A stretch of 64,000 bases of DNA from Streptomyces liangshanensis (lineage in GTDB: Bacteria; Actinomycetota; Actinomycetes; Streptomycetales; Streptomycetaceae), in assembly GCF_011694815.1 (NCBI RefSeq), contig NZ_CP050177.1, positions 6,889,501 to 6,953,500 of the forward strand. Direction: 5' to 3'. This document shows positions 48,300 to 64,000 of the stretch, piece after piece. The position numbers and the translations under genes were made by a program. The notes under the pieces are model-generated. The model saw nothing but the letters and a program-made list of their open reading frames with translations. It made no database searches and was not told the origin of the DNA. How positions within the stretch are numbered: position 1 is the first letter of the stretch; each line of letters starts with the position of its first letter.

Positions 48300-51200
48300 G
48301 TGTCCGGTATCGAAGAAGCAGTGGGTTACTGGCGGAACGCGCTCGCACCGCTCTCACCCGAGACGGCGCTGCCGGCCGACCGCCCGTACCCGGTGTCACC
48401 CTCCGGGGACCGGTCGGTACGGACACGGCGCACCGGCACCCTGGCCGGCGCCGAGACCCGACTCGCCGCCTACTTCGCCCTGTTGCACCGCTACAGCGGC
48501 GCCGCCGACCTCACCGTCGGGTACGCGAACCTGCCCGTGCGCGTCGACCTCGGCGGCCCCCCGACCTTCGCGGAGCTGGTACGGCGCGTGGAGGACGCCC
48601 TCGCGGCGGCCCGCGCGCACCGGCTGCCGCCGCGCACGCTGGTCGACGCCCTGCGCCCGGCGCCGACCCGCGGCGGCGGACTGTTCTTCAACACCGCCTT
48701 CGACGCGGACCCCGGCACCGGCGCGGCGGCGCGGGCGGATGCCGCGGGGGAGGACATGCCGGGCACCCTCGACCTGGCGCTCGACGTCGTCCCGGACGAG
48801 GTCCAGGCGACGTACCGCACCGACCTGTTCGACGACGCGACCGTCGACCGGCTGCTCGGCCACTACGAGACCCTGCTGGCCGACGGCCTCGCCCGGCCGG
48901 GCACGCCGGTCGCCGAACTCGCCCTGACCACGCCCGACGAGCACCACCGCCTGCTGGTCGAGTGGAACGCCACCGAGCACGCCGTCCCGGCCGCCACCTG
49001 GCCCGCGATGTTCGCCGAGCAGGTCCGCCTGCGCCCCGCCGCGACCGCGCTCGTCTTCGAGGAGGAGCGCCTCACCTACGCCGAGCTGGACGAGCGGGCC
49101 AACCGCCTCGCGCACGCCCTGATCGCCCGGGGCGCCGGCCCCGAGCGCGTCGTGGCCCTCGCCCTGCCGCGCTCCGCCGACCTGATCGTCGCCGAGGTCG
49201 CCGTCCTCAAGTCGGGCGCCGCCTACCTGCCCGTGGACCGCGACTACCCGGCCGACCGGATCGCGTACATGCTCGCGGACGCGCGGCCCGTCTGCCTGGT
49301 CACGACGGCCGACGCCGAACTCCTCCCCGAGGACGCGGAAGGGGAGCAGGACGGGATCACCACGCTCCTCCTGGACCTGCCGGAGACCGCCGAGGAGTTG
49401 GCCGGACGCCCGGCCCACGACCCCACCGACGCCGACCGCGGCGGTGAACTCACCGTCCTCAACGCCGCGTACGTCATCTACACCTCCGGATCGACCGGCC
49501 GCCCCAAGGGCGTCGTCCTTTCGCACACCGGCGTCGCCAAACTCGTCGCCACCCAGAGCGAGCGCTTCGGCATCGGACCGGACAGCCGCGTCCTGCAATT
49601 CGCCTCGCCCAGCTTCGACGTGGCTTTCTGGGATCTCTGCCTCGGCCTGCTCTCCGGCGGCCGCCTCGTCGTCGTACCGAGCGAACTGCGGGTGCCCGGC
49701 GCCCCCCTCGCCGACTACGCCAACGCCCACGGCATCACCTTCATGATCCTGCCGCCCGCCCTGCTCGCCGCCCTGCCCGACGACGTGCGGCTGCCGCCCG
49801 CCGCCACCCTTCTGGCCGGCACTGAGCGCGTCTCGCCCGAGCTGGTCGGGCGCTACGCCCGCGGCCGCATGATGTTCAACGCGTACGGTCCCACCGAGGC
49901 CACCACCAACTCGACCCTCGGCCTCTGCGACCCCGACACCCCGGCCGGCACGATCGTCCCCATCGGCGTGCCCGACCCCGGCACCCGCGCCTACGTCCTC
50001 GACGCACGCCTGCGACCGGTCCCGGCCGGCGTCCCCGGCGAGCTGTACCTCGGCGGCGCGGGCCTCGCCCGCGGCTACCTCGGCCGGCCCTCCCTCACCG
50101 CCGAACGCTTCGTCGCCGACCCCTTCGGCGCCCCGGGCGAGCGGCTCTACCGCACCGGTGACCTCGTACGGTGGAAGGCCGACGGACGCCTGGAGTTCCT
50201 CGGCCGCGCCGACACCCAGATCAAGATCCGCGGCTTCCGCATCGAACCGGGCGAGATCGAGTCCGTCCTGCGCGGCCACCCGGCGGTCGACCAGGTCGCC
50301 GTCGTCGCCCGCGAGGACCGGCCCGGCGAGCGCAGGCTCGCCGCGTACGTCGTCCCCTCCCTCGACACCGAGCCCGGCCACGACGAGACCGCCCAGGTCG
50401 AGGAGTGGAAGGACCTGCACGAACTGCTCTACAGCGCCGCCGGGACGGAGGGCCAGGGCTTCCGCGAGAACTTCGCCGGCTGGAACAGCATGTACGACGG
50501 CACCCCCCTGCCCGTCGACGAGATGCGCGAGTGGCGGGACGCGACGATCGACCGGATCCGCGCGCTCGGCCCGGGGCGCCGGATCCTGGAGATCGGCGTG
50601 GGCAGCGGACTGATCCTCTCCAGGATCGCCCCCGACAGCGACGCCTACTGGGGCACCGACGTCTCCCACGAGGCGGTACGGGCGCTGCGCGCCCAGGTCG
50701 ACGCCGTACCCGAACTGGCCCCGCGCGTCGAGCTGTCGGCCCGGCCCGCCCACGACACCGAGGGCCTGCCCGAAGGGTTCTTCGACACCGTCGTCATCAA
50801 CTCCGTCGCCCAGTACTTCCCGAGCGCCGACTACCTCGCCGAGGTGCTGCGCAAGGTCAGCGCCCTGCTCGCCCCCGGCGGCGCCGTCTTCGTCGGCGAC
50901 GTACGCAACCTGCGGCTGCTGCGCACCCTGCGCGCCGCCGTCGAGAGCCGGGGCGCGGCCGGGCACGAAGAGAGCGACAAGACCGCGCTGCGCGCGGCGG
51001 TCGACCGCTCGGTCGCGTGGGAGGGCGAACTGCTCCTCGACCCGGACTACTTCACGGCCCTGCCGGGGTACGAGGCGGACGTCCTCGTCAAACGGGCCAC
51101 GCACCGGAACGAGTTGAGCCGCTACCGGTACGACGTCGTGCTGCGCCCGTCAGGACCGGCGGCCGGGACGTCCGCGCCCGGACAGCCGGCGCCCGACCAG

Positions 51201-51960
51201 GACCCGTCGCGGGAGATCCGCTGGTCCGGGCTCGGCGGCCTCGACGCGCTCGCCGCCCTCCTCGCCGGACGCCCCGACCGGATCCGGGTCACCGGCGTGC
51301 CCAACGGCCGCCTGGACGAGGACGATTCGGCCCTGCGCGCCCTGGAGGACAGCAGCGGCCCCGCCCCCGCCGGCACCGACCCCGAGGCGTTCCACACCCT
51401 CGCCGCCCGGCACGGCTACCGCTGCGCCGTCACCTGGAACGGGCACGCCGACGACGGCAGCCTCGACGTCGTCCTCGCGGCGGGCGACGGCCCCCTCGGC
51501 ACGGTCTACCGCCCCGGCGGAGGCTTCCCGCACGCCAACCGGCCCGTGCCCTTCCGCGACATCACCACGCTGATGAAGACCCTGCGGGCCCACACCACCG
51601 ACCGGCTGCCCGAGTACATGGTGCCGTCGGCGTTCGTCCCGCTCGACCGGCTGCCCGTCACCCCCAGCGGCAAGCTCGACGAAAAGGCCCTGCCCGCCCC
51701 GGACTACGGCGCCCTCAGCTCGGGCCGCGCCCCCCGCGACGCCCGCGAGACGCTGCTCTGCGGCCTGTACGCCGACGTCCTCGGCCTGCGCTCCGTCACC
51801 ATCGACGACGACTTCCTGGCCCTCGGCGGCGACAGCATCACCGCGATCCAACTGCTCATCAAGGCCCGCAAGGAGGGCATCCAGCTCACCACCCGCGACG
51901 TCTTCCGCCACCGCACCGTCGCCGCGCTCGCGACCGTCGCCGTCGACCGCACGGGCGGCG
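48300..51960 (+). other. NRPS module 1: C remnant - A1 - N-MT - T1
   Basis: Residues 1-210 match only the second half of a condensation domain ([31 protein letters not shown]); the HHxxxDG half is absent, so this should be the start module. A1: [14 protein letters not shown] at 49470, [10 protein letters not shown] at 49878, YRTGDLV near 50150. My reading of the pocket is D-V-W-I-L-A-A-T-N-K, which I cannot assign. The N-MT insert (SAM motif [10 protein letters not shown] at 50583) sits between A8 and A10 ([11 protein letters not shown] near 51660). T1 is LGGDSI (Ser 51834), the type usually found before an E domain. Confidence 0.85.
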
Positions 51961-63900: not shown

Positions 63901-64000
63901 TCCCCGGACTCGACCTCCGCGAGGAGGAACTCGGCCAGGACACCGCCAAGTTCGACCTCTCCTTCGACTTCGTGGAGGAGACCGACGGCGGCGGCGTGCA
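48300..64000 (+). CDS. Siderophore non-ribosomal peptide synthetase, 3' end outside window
   Basis: One frame stays open from GTG 48300 (GGGGAGG ten bases upstream) to the right edge, more than 5,230 codons. Domain order seen: C-terminal lobe of a C domain, A1-MT-T1, C2-A2-T2, C3-A3-MT-T3, C4-A4-T4, C5 and onward. The A2 code reads as serine and A3 as hydroxyornithine; A1 and A4 are unassigned. MT inserts in A1 and A3 imply N-methylation of residues 1 and 3. With the hydroxylase, formyltransferase, importer and iron boxes it should assemble a peptidic hydroxamate siderophore. An mbtH-like gene, exporter and release domain are not visible and may lie beyond the edge. Details are in the module entries. 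Confidence 0.95.
52020..55160 (+). other. NRPS module 2: C2 - A2 (serine) - T2
   Basis: C2 opens [15 protein letters not shown] and has an intact HHIVADG at 52455; this opening is typical of D-accepting condensation domains. A2: [14 protein letters not shown] at 53832; pocket D-V-W-H-L-S-L-V-D-K, one conservative change from the standard serine code DVWHLSLIDK. T2: LGGDSI (Ser 55011), again the E-domain type, though no E domain follows. Confidence 0.85.
55190..59590 (+). other. NRPS module 3: degenerate C3 - A3 (hydroxyornithine) - N-MT - T3
   Basis: C3 opens [15 protein letters not shown], but the HHxxxDG position reads HLILWDG (55659), so the second, catalytic His is Leu. A3: [14 protein letters not shown] at 57048; pocket D-M-E-N-L-G-L-I-N-K, which as I recall is the code of the N5-hydroxyornithine module of coelichelin synthetase. 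N-MT insert with [10 protein letters not shown] at 58182. An ESPxTDR repeat lies just after it. T3 is LGGHSL (Ser 59481). Confidence 0.85.
59640..62730 (+). other. NRPS module 4: C4 - A4 - T4
   Basis: C4 is a standard L-accepting type ([11 protein letters not shown]), with HHITTDE at 60030. A4: [14 protein letters not shown] at 61449; pocket read as D-A-D-E-A-G-L-V-D-K. Two acidic residues suggest a basic substrate such as ornithine, but I cannot match it. T4 is LGGHSL (Ser 62640). Confidence 0.75.
62790..64000 (+). other. NRPS module 5: C5, cut by the window edge
   Basis: C5 starts [16 protein letters not shown] and has HHIAGDE at 63198. The window ends within its C-terminal half. At least one more A domain is expected beyond the edge. 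Confidence 0.85.

Follow-up and report, generated by a model that had tools for sequence, protein, structure and literature searches.

The Streptomyces liangshanensis locus described here is very probably an iron-controlled siderophore gene cluster of the scabichelin family and, judged from its sequence, is directly related to the locus for scabichelin in Streptomyces scabiei 87.22. It was found in a stretch of 64,000 nucleotides (contig NZ_CP050177.1, positions 6,889,501 to 6,953,500 of the forward strand; hereafter the window) and continues beyond its right-hand edge. The scabichelin type of cluster is already known; what is new is an altered pocket in module 4 of the NRPS, which poses one testable question of specificity within a known family.

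The NRPS is encoded on the forward strand by a single frame that runs from a GTG at 48300 to a stop at 67397 (6365 aa). It crosses the window edge at 64000, with 5233 residues inside the window and 1132 beyond it, which were read from the same genome. The preliminary description had counted five or more modules; the complete frame has exactly five, in the order truncated C-A-MT-T-C-A-T-C-A-MT-T-C-A-T-C-A-T-E, with domain borders that are approximate and were set by us. The Condensation family of Pfam was matched at all six sites tested. The first of these (48300–48944) is only the C-terminal part of a condensation domain, matching profile positions 297-451 of 456, and the others lie between modules 1 and 2 (52002–53369), 2 and 3 (55152–56579), 3 and 4 (59592–60989), and 4 and 5 (62787–64000, cut by the window end), and at the terminus of the protein. 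The terminal domain, a member of the Condensation family by Pfam, is taken here to be an E domain from its motifs. The A domains of the first three modules have the codes DVWILAATN (module 1, 48945–50366), DVWHLSLVD (module 2, 53370–54869), a serine-type code, and DMENLGLIN (module 3, 56520–57929), a hydroxyornithine code. N-methyltransferase inserts in modules 1 (50367–51179) and 3 (57942–58799) match Pfam Methyltransf_12 with E-values of 9.8e-15 and 8.2e-11, respectively; these inserts and the codes of modules 2 and 3 bear out what had been proposed earlier. The module 4 A domain occupies 60987–62459, and the module 5 A and T domains and the terminal E domain follow beyond 64000, up to 67394.

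The hydroxylase, formyltransferase and FecCD importer genes adjoin the NRPS, as in scabichelin-type clusters. An L-ornithine N5-monooxygenase (465 aa; 41719–43116, reverse strand) matches Pfam Lys_Orn_oxgnase (3.4e-106) and shares 75.6% identity with its counterpart in the S. scabiei locus. The putative N5-hydroxyornithine formyltransferase (315 aa; 43193–44140, forward strand; Pfam Formyl_trans_N and Formyl_trans_C) shares 83.8%. It overlaps by 4 bases with a gene for an acetylglutamate kinase (ArgB) paralogue (44137–45018, forward strand; NCBIfam TIGR00761, above cut-off), which presumably serves ornithine supply. A second ArgB copy with 65% identity is found elsewhere in the source genome, and the paralogue is present in 9 of the 80 named loci. 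Three importer genes follow on the reverse strand: an ATPase (45109–45981; 78% to S. scabiei), whose best NCBIfam matches are siderophore ATPases below cut-off, permease 2 (45986–47095; Pfam FecCD; 73%) and the FecCD-type permease 1 (47098–48123; 82%), whose best NCBIfam match is an Fe(3+)-siderophore permease, also below cut-off. The right flank past the NRPS carries MbtH, binding-protein and ABC-exporter genes. No tRNA genes were found in the 64-kb window.

Three predicted iron boxes, each matching at 15 of 19 positions and without strand assignment, are located between the hydroxylase and formyltransferase genes (43152–43170), upstream of the importer genes (48148–48166) and upstream of the NRPS (48218–48236). 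A fourth, with at least 15 of 19 matches, lies in the right flank at 72562. The scan required at least 15 of 19 matches to the IdeR/DmdR consensus; at this threshold none of 20 surrogate sequences generated from the 64-kb window by a first-order Markov model contained a box, and a search with up to three mismatches to a slightly different consensus returned no iron boxes. The predicted boxes would place the cluster under iron-box control, a scabichelin-type feature. Boxes, hydroxylase, formyltransferase, importer and NRPS had been described as one coherent system beginning at 48300; the system is borne out by the three boxes in the window and the Pfam and NCBIfam matches, but its accessory genes lie to the left of that point.

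Genes, domains, codes, synteny and iron-box sequences were observed directly. Under iron starvation, an iron-dependent repressor would leave the boxes and the genes would be switched on. Ornithine would be N5-hydroxylated and, for residue 1, also N5-formylated, perhaps with the ArgB paralogue aiding supply. The NRPS would then assemble N-methyl-formyl-hydroxyornithine, serine, N-methyl-hydroxyornithine, a fourth basic residue (ornithine in scabichelin) and hydroxyornithine. The 6365-aa protein, whose release domain had been left to be found, ends in the E domain and contains no thioesterase domain; release most likely occurs, for that reason, when the N-hydroxyamine of the last hydroxyornithine attacks the thioester to give a cyclic hydroxamate. 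The product would be exported, chelate Fe(III) via three hydroxamates and be re-imported by the binding protein and the FecCD importer. The mass computed for N-Me-fhOrn + Ser + N-Me-hOrn + Orn + cyclo-hOrn is 647.3602, equal to the exact mass of 647.36 published for scabichelin in the accessible text of PMC7692728.

The pocket of module 4 departs from this family pattern. The protein list covered the best 120 of 724 entries. Module 4 domains of relatives were selected by the pattern FD[G/A]SW and a minimum of 60% identity to the window; of 98 distinct domains, 4 missed this threshold and were excluded before the count of 93 relatives, for which residue frequencies are column counts in place of pattern-read codes. 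The window has Glu278 (codon at 61743) and Asn321 (61893), whereas Asp occupies both positions in 93/93 relatives; E278 and N321 occur in none of these and in all 85 module 5 domains. A236 (61620) is found in 8/93 module 4 relatives, as against 85/85 module 5 domains, so that the window takes the module 5, or hydroxyornithine, state at 236, 278 and 321. At position 299 the window retains the state most often seen in module 4. Its L300 (61824) is neither the module 4 residue nor the one most frequent in module 5. The corresponding S. scabiei pocket is G236/D278/V300/D321; the ornithine-type module 4 with G236, D278 and D321 that the making of scabichelin implies is thus absent from the window. 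Three of the five changes private to the window at conserved columns fall within an 8-angstrom pocket set (hypergeometric p = 0.016, for a test picked post hoc). Three pocket-private changes were likewise seen in one other relative, L134. In the numbering given in PMC7692728, the window's module 4 string DAWEAGLVDK departs from the hydroxyornithine code of module 5 at a single position, 299. No paper with this string turned up in the literature searched, which did yield DAWEGGLVDK (PMC7692728) and DVGEIGSIDK (PMC3992020).

The preliminary description had not singled out the module 4 difference, which bears on whether scabichelin is made and not on membership of the wider family. Module 4 is variable across that family, and 28 of the 80 loci have a serine code there. 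Another 23 yielded no reading of module 4 (in 13 the longest frame lacked a module 3 site, and 10 were unread or not reached), and two lacked position 278.

Substitution patterns suggest that the module 4 A domain (A4) is recombined. It falls in one group with the ornithine-type A4 domains from SID3212 and P0088 (support 0.947) and is 81% identical to the closest complete relative compared, which is 92% identical outside A4. Measured against SID3212, dS is 0.342 in A4 and 0.093-0.259 in the 13 other stretches, while dN is 0.116 and 0.013-0.072, respectively. Since synonymous change is raised as well as dN, recombination is favoured over purely fast evolution under selection, which is the less likely account. 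Against S. lushanensis, the dS of A4 (0.507) is not unusual beside the values of 0.414-0.630 in the other stretches, but its dN (0.156) is second only to the 0.277 of the truncated C domain, and additional change at the protein level may therefore have occurred. An origin as a foreign, unrelated A domain and conversion from module 5 were both rejected, given the ornithine-type module 4 grouping and the identity of only 54% to the window's own module 5.

On this evidence, residue 4 may still be ornithine or may be hydroxyornithine. We lean slightly towards scabichelin itself, with the module 4 changes leaving the loading of ornithine unaltered. The grouping of A4 with ornithine-type domains points this way, as do the acidic residues retained at 278 and 331. 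Moreover, the ornithine code DVGEIGSIDK, as published in the accessible text of PMC3992020, carries Glu at 278, so E278 need not change the substrate. Against this, D278 and D321 are kept in every one of the 93 ornithine-type domains and are therefore not freely variable, and because the window differs from all of them at both positions, the cluster may make something other than scabichelin. It is possible, though doubtful, that the recombined domain has switched module 4 from ornithine to N5-hydroxyornithine (or another amine), giving an undescribed congener, possibly with a fourth N-hydroxyl, with a computed mass of 663.355 (691.350 in the formylated form) in place of 647.360; lysine as residue 4 would give 661.376. 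Module 5 residues at three pocket positions, the near match to the hydroxyornithine code and the concentration of private changes in the pocket set would fit such a switch, but E278 also occurs in an ornithine code, position 299 follows module 4, L300 is not the commonest module 5 residue, L134 has as many pocket-private changes, and six-coordinate iron has no obvious use for a fourth hydroxamate. It is highly improbable that the substrate of module 1 is not formyl-hydroxyornithine: the code of this module was unlike the hydroxyornithine codes known to the preliminary description, which saw novelty there, but the same code recurs in S. scabiei 87.22, in 10 other relatives with module 1 read and in 17/17 five-module proteins (window included), and albisporachelin also starts with N-methyl-formyl-hydroxyornithine in the accessible text of PMC6024995. 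One relative with six modules, P0014, departs from it at a single position; on these comparisons the code is the normal one for the scabichelin family, and module 1 gives no argument for a new compound.

The cluster is one more scabichelin-type locus in a family that this analysis encountered in many streptomycetes and in related actinomycetes. Together with the complete relative that is less similar inside A4 than outside it, it offers a test case for whether the choice of ornithine or hydroxyornithine is set by E278 and N321. Should module 4 have switched, this would be a natural change of specificity through a handful of pocket residues in an otherwise conserved assembly line.

In the S. 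scabiei 87.22 locus (NC_013929.1), an open frame of 6376 aa matches the window NRPS in module order and in its five A-domain sites, with 74.3% identity over 6281 aligned residues. The two proteins share their codes in modules 1, 2, 3 and 5, and neither has a thioesterase domain. Reportedly, Kodani et al. described the structure of scabichelin and the disruption of its NRPS in 2013. Seven accessory genes on the left side were tested; the five for the hydroxylase, formyltransferase, ATPase and two permeases are matched at 73-84%, whereas the ArgB paralogue and an outer SpoIIE-type phosphatase have no counterparts in that locus; to the right, MbtH, the binding protein and both exporter halves are matched at 66-71%. 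The accessible text of PMC8914351 assigns scabichelin to SCAB_85431-85521, with SCAB_85471 as the NRPS, and we infer from place, size and architecture that the 6376-aa frame is SCAB_85471. The module 5 code agrees at all nine positions read with DAWEGGLVDK, the scabichelin code for hydroxyornithine in the accessible text of PMC7692728. The suggested resemblance to scabichelin and turgichelin is thereby substantiated, and a full-length match with the same order and four of five identical codes removes most of the claimed novelty, leaving module 4 as the difference.

The Streptomyces turgidiscabies Car8 locus, which we infer to be of the turgichelin type, likewise has five modules. Modules 1, 3 and 5 carry identical codes and module 2 is of the serine type, but module 4 there has a serine code too (73.3% identity). 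This module 4 code is presumably what separates turgichelin from scabichelin. Six-module relatives, such as Streptomyces seoulensis with a 7402-aa frame, share the types of modules 1-3 and of the last module but have an extra serine-type module before the last; they are possibly of the peucechelin type. Coelichelin is a formyl-hydroxyornithine NRPS siderophore whose NRPS has three modules, incorporates threonine and lacks N-methyltransferases. The window, with five modules and two methyltransferases, departs from these features, as had been noted earlier for the methyltransferases and the amino acid codes. Compared by structure, and as given in the accessible text of PMC6024995, albisporachelin shares with the scabichelin type an N-methyl-formyl-hydroxyornithine, a serine and a cyclic hydroxyornithine end, but it has four residues, all L, with formyl-hydroxyornithine as the third and N-methyl groups on residues 1 and 4.

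The window spans positions 6889501-6953500 of one contig of 7,716,784 bases, and the frame of the NRPS, open to the window end, is finished in the right flank. The gene runs on the plus strand from a GTG at 48300 to a stop at 67397 and encodes 6365 residues (P0001). Motifs and Pfam matches give the order truncated C, A1-MT-T1, C-A2-T2, C-A3-MT-T3, C-A4-T4, C-A5-T5, then a final domain of the condensation family, which we take from its HHLLVDG and EFNYLGRF motifs to be an epimerisation domain. Pfam found no thioesterase domain in the last 471 residues, nor does the precomputed Pfam list for the whole protein contain one. 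Related clusters with identical domain order, ending in A/T/E, are described from Phytohabitans in PMC7692728. The NRPS opens with a condensation domain reduced to its C-terminal part (48300-48944; profile positions 297-451 of 456 in Pfam). Named genomes were scanned with NRPS residues 1-1250, which gave 268 relatives, and the best 80 were retained; these include S. scabiei 87.22, S. turgidiscabies Car8, and S. ipomoeae. The N-terminal stump looks conserved across relatives: in 69 of these 80 loci the match to the query starts no later than residue 10, and the open frame in S. scabiei exceeds this one by only 11 residues.

Substrate codes were read at the PheA positions, with the tenth, Lys517, assumed. 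The window carries D V W I L A A T N in module 1, D V W H L S L V D in module 2, D M E N L G L I N in module 3, and D A (W) E G G L V D in module 5, and all four are identical in S. scabiei. The unusual module 1 code, read in the preliminary description as a possible sign of novelty, is thus the normal one for the scabichelin family. Residue 1 of scabichelin is N-methyl-formyl-hydroxyornithine. With that residue first, the computed sum of scabichelin residues fits the mass of 647.36 given in PMC7692728. The same paper gives DAWEGGLVDK as the hydroxyornithine code of scabichelin module 5, with which our module 5 reading agrees, serving as a check of the code-reading method.

The module 4 adenylation domain (A4) was compared with 93 distinct ornithine-type module 4 domains and 85 module 5 domains. 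At positions 278, 300, and 321 (PheA numbering) the window has E, L, and N, where all 93 have D, V, and D; its A236 is common to eight of the 93. A236, E278, and N321 are all present in 85/85 module 5 domains. The window A4 deviates at five of 195 conserved columns, three of them inside a pocket set of 33 columns (25 conserved); the enrichment has p = 0.016 in a test devised after the changes were seen. Leave-one-out over the other relatives gave three pocket-private changes in one (L134), two in one, one in ten, and none in 81. The window A4 is therefore unusual but not alone, since L134 likewise has three.

Module 4 varies across the best 80 of 268 loci: the code is serine in 28, ornithine-like in 29, and unreadable in 23. 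The ornithine-like loci comprise 23 FDGSWE/D, two FDASWE/D, one FDGSWD/D, one FDASWD/D, and two FDGSWE with 278 unread. A protein search with the window A4 listed the best 120 of 724, and 76 of these 120 carry scabichelin-type modules (17 five-module, 59 six-module). Within this best 120, FDASWD stands in module 4 of the window alone among the five-module proteins and of 6/59 six-module proteins; the fifth module has a serine-type code in 58/59 of the latter. Six-module versions were seen in Streptomyces seoulensis (L119+L120) and Streptosporangium subroseum (L121+L122). S. scabiei (L016) has an ornithine-type code in module 4, yet its one cluster yields both scabichelin and turgichelin according to PMC8914351, which suggests relaxed module 4 selectivity.

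The E278 change by itself does not prove a new substrate, because Glu278 stands in the ornithine code DVGEIGSIDK described in PMC3992020. On balance, ornithine is slightly more likely than not to be the substrate of module 4 in the window; hydroxyornithine is a less likely alternative.

The A4 domains of the window, SID3212, and the complete relative P0088 form one group (support 0.947), and those of SID3212 and P0088 are 93% alike. Identity between the window and P0088 is 92.2% outside A4 and 81.0% inside it, and synonymous change relative to SID3212 is 0.342 in A4 against 0.093-0.259 in the other stretches measured. The best fit to these values is that A4 was exchanged with its counterpart in a further, unsampled scabichelin-type cluster. 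Among 392 genomes drawn from the genus, the source genome being one of them, the nearest other A4 is 76% identical, and the donor was thus not found in that draw. Selection may have acted too, since dN relative to S. lushanensis is raised.

Left of the NRPS lie a hydroxylase, a formyltransferase, an ArgB-like kinase, an ATPase, and two FecCD-type permeases. Beyond the window, to the right, follow MbtH (67435-67638) and, on the minus strand, a periplasmic-binding-protein-type protein (67814-68896) and two ABC exporter halves (68973-70802 and 70799-72502). A scored scan found four iron boxes with at least 15/19 matches, in the hydroxylase/formyltransferase gap and ahead of the importer, the NRPS, and the exporter; 20 surrogates of the window contained none at this threshold. 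The acetylglutamate kinase (ArgB) paralogue (44137-45018) shares four bases with the formyltransferase and presumably increases ornithine supply. An ArgB match adjoins the formyltransferase in 9/80 named loci, the formyltransferase itself being found in 72/80. Several other large NRPS genes occur in the source genome, near 0.20, 0.60, 4.75, and 7.58 Mb.

Whole synthetases were obtained from S. scabiei and ten others, that of SID3212 being interrupted by a contig end, and eight were aligned to the window. Identity over aligned residues was 91.1% for SID3212 (5454 residues), 81.3% for S. lushanensis, 76.5% for AcH505, 76.3% for S. spinoverrucosus, 74.7% for S. stelliscabiei, 74.3% for S. scabiei, 73.3% for S. 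turgidiscabies, and 72.1% for S. wuyuanensis. The final ~300 residues of the long frame in Streptomyces sp. AcH 505 (L114) align poorly with the other synthetases, as would be expected from a broken terminal domain or an error in the sequence. Scabichelin is assigned to S. scabiei SCAB_85431-85521 in PMC8914351, and we infer that the S. scabiei stretch compared here is that locus. Its hydroxylase, formyltransferase, ATPase, and permeases share 73-84% identity with their counterparts in the cluster described here, and its MbtH, binding protein, and exporter halves 66-71%. The ArgB paralogue and outer phosphatase of the window have no counterpart there. Apart from the module 4 question, the whole cluster is a known system.
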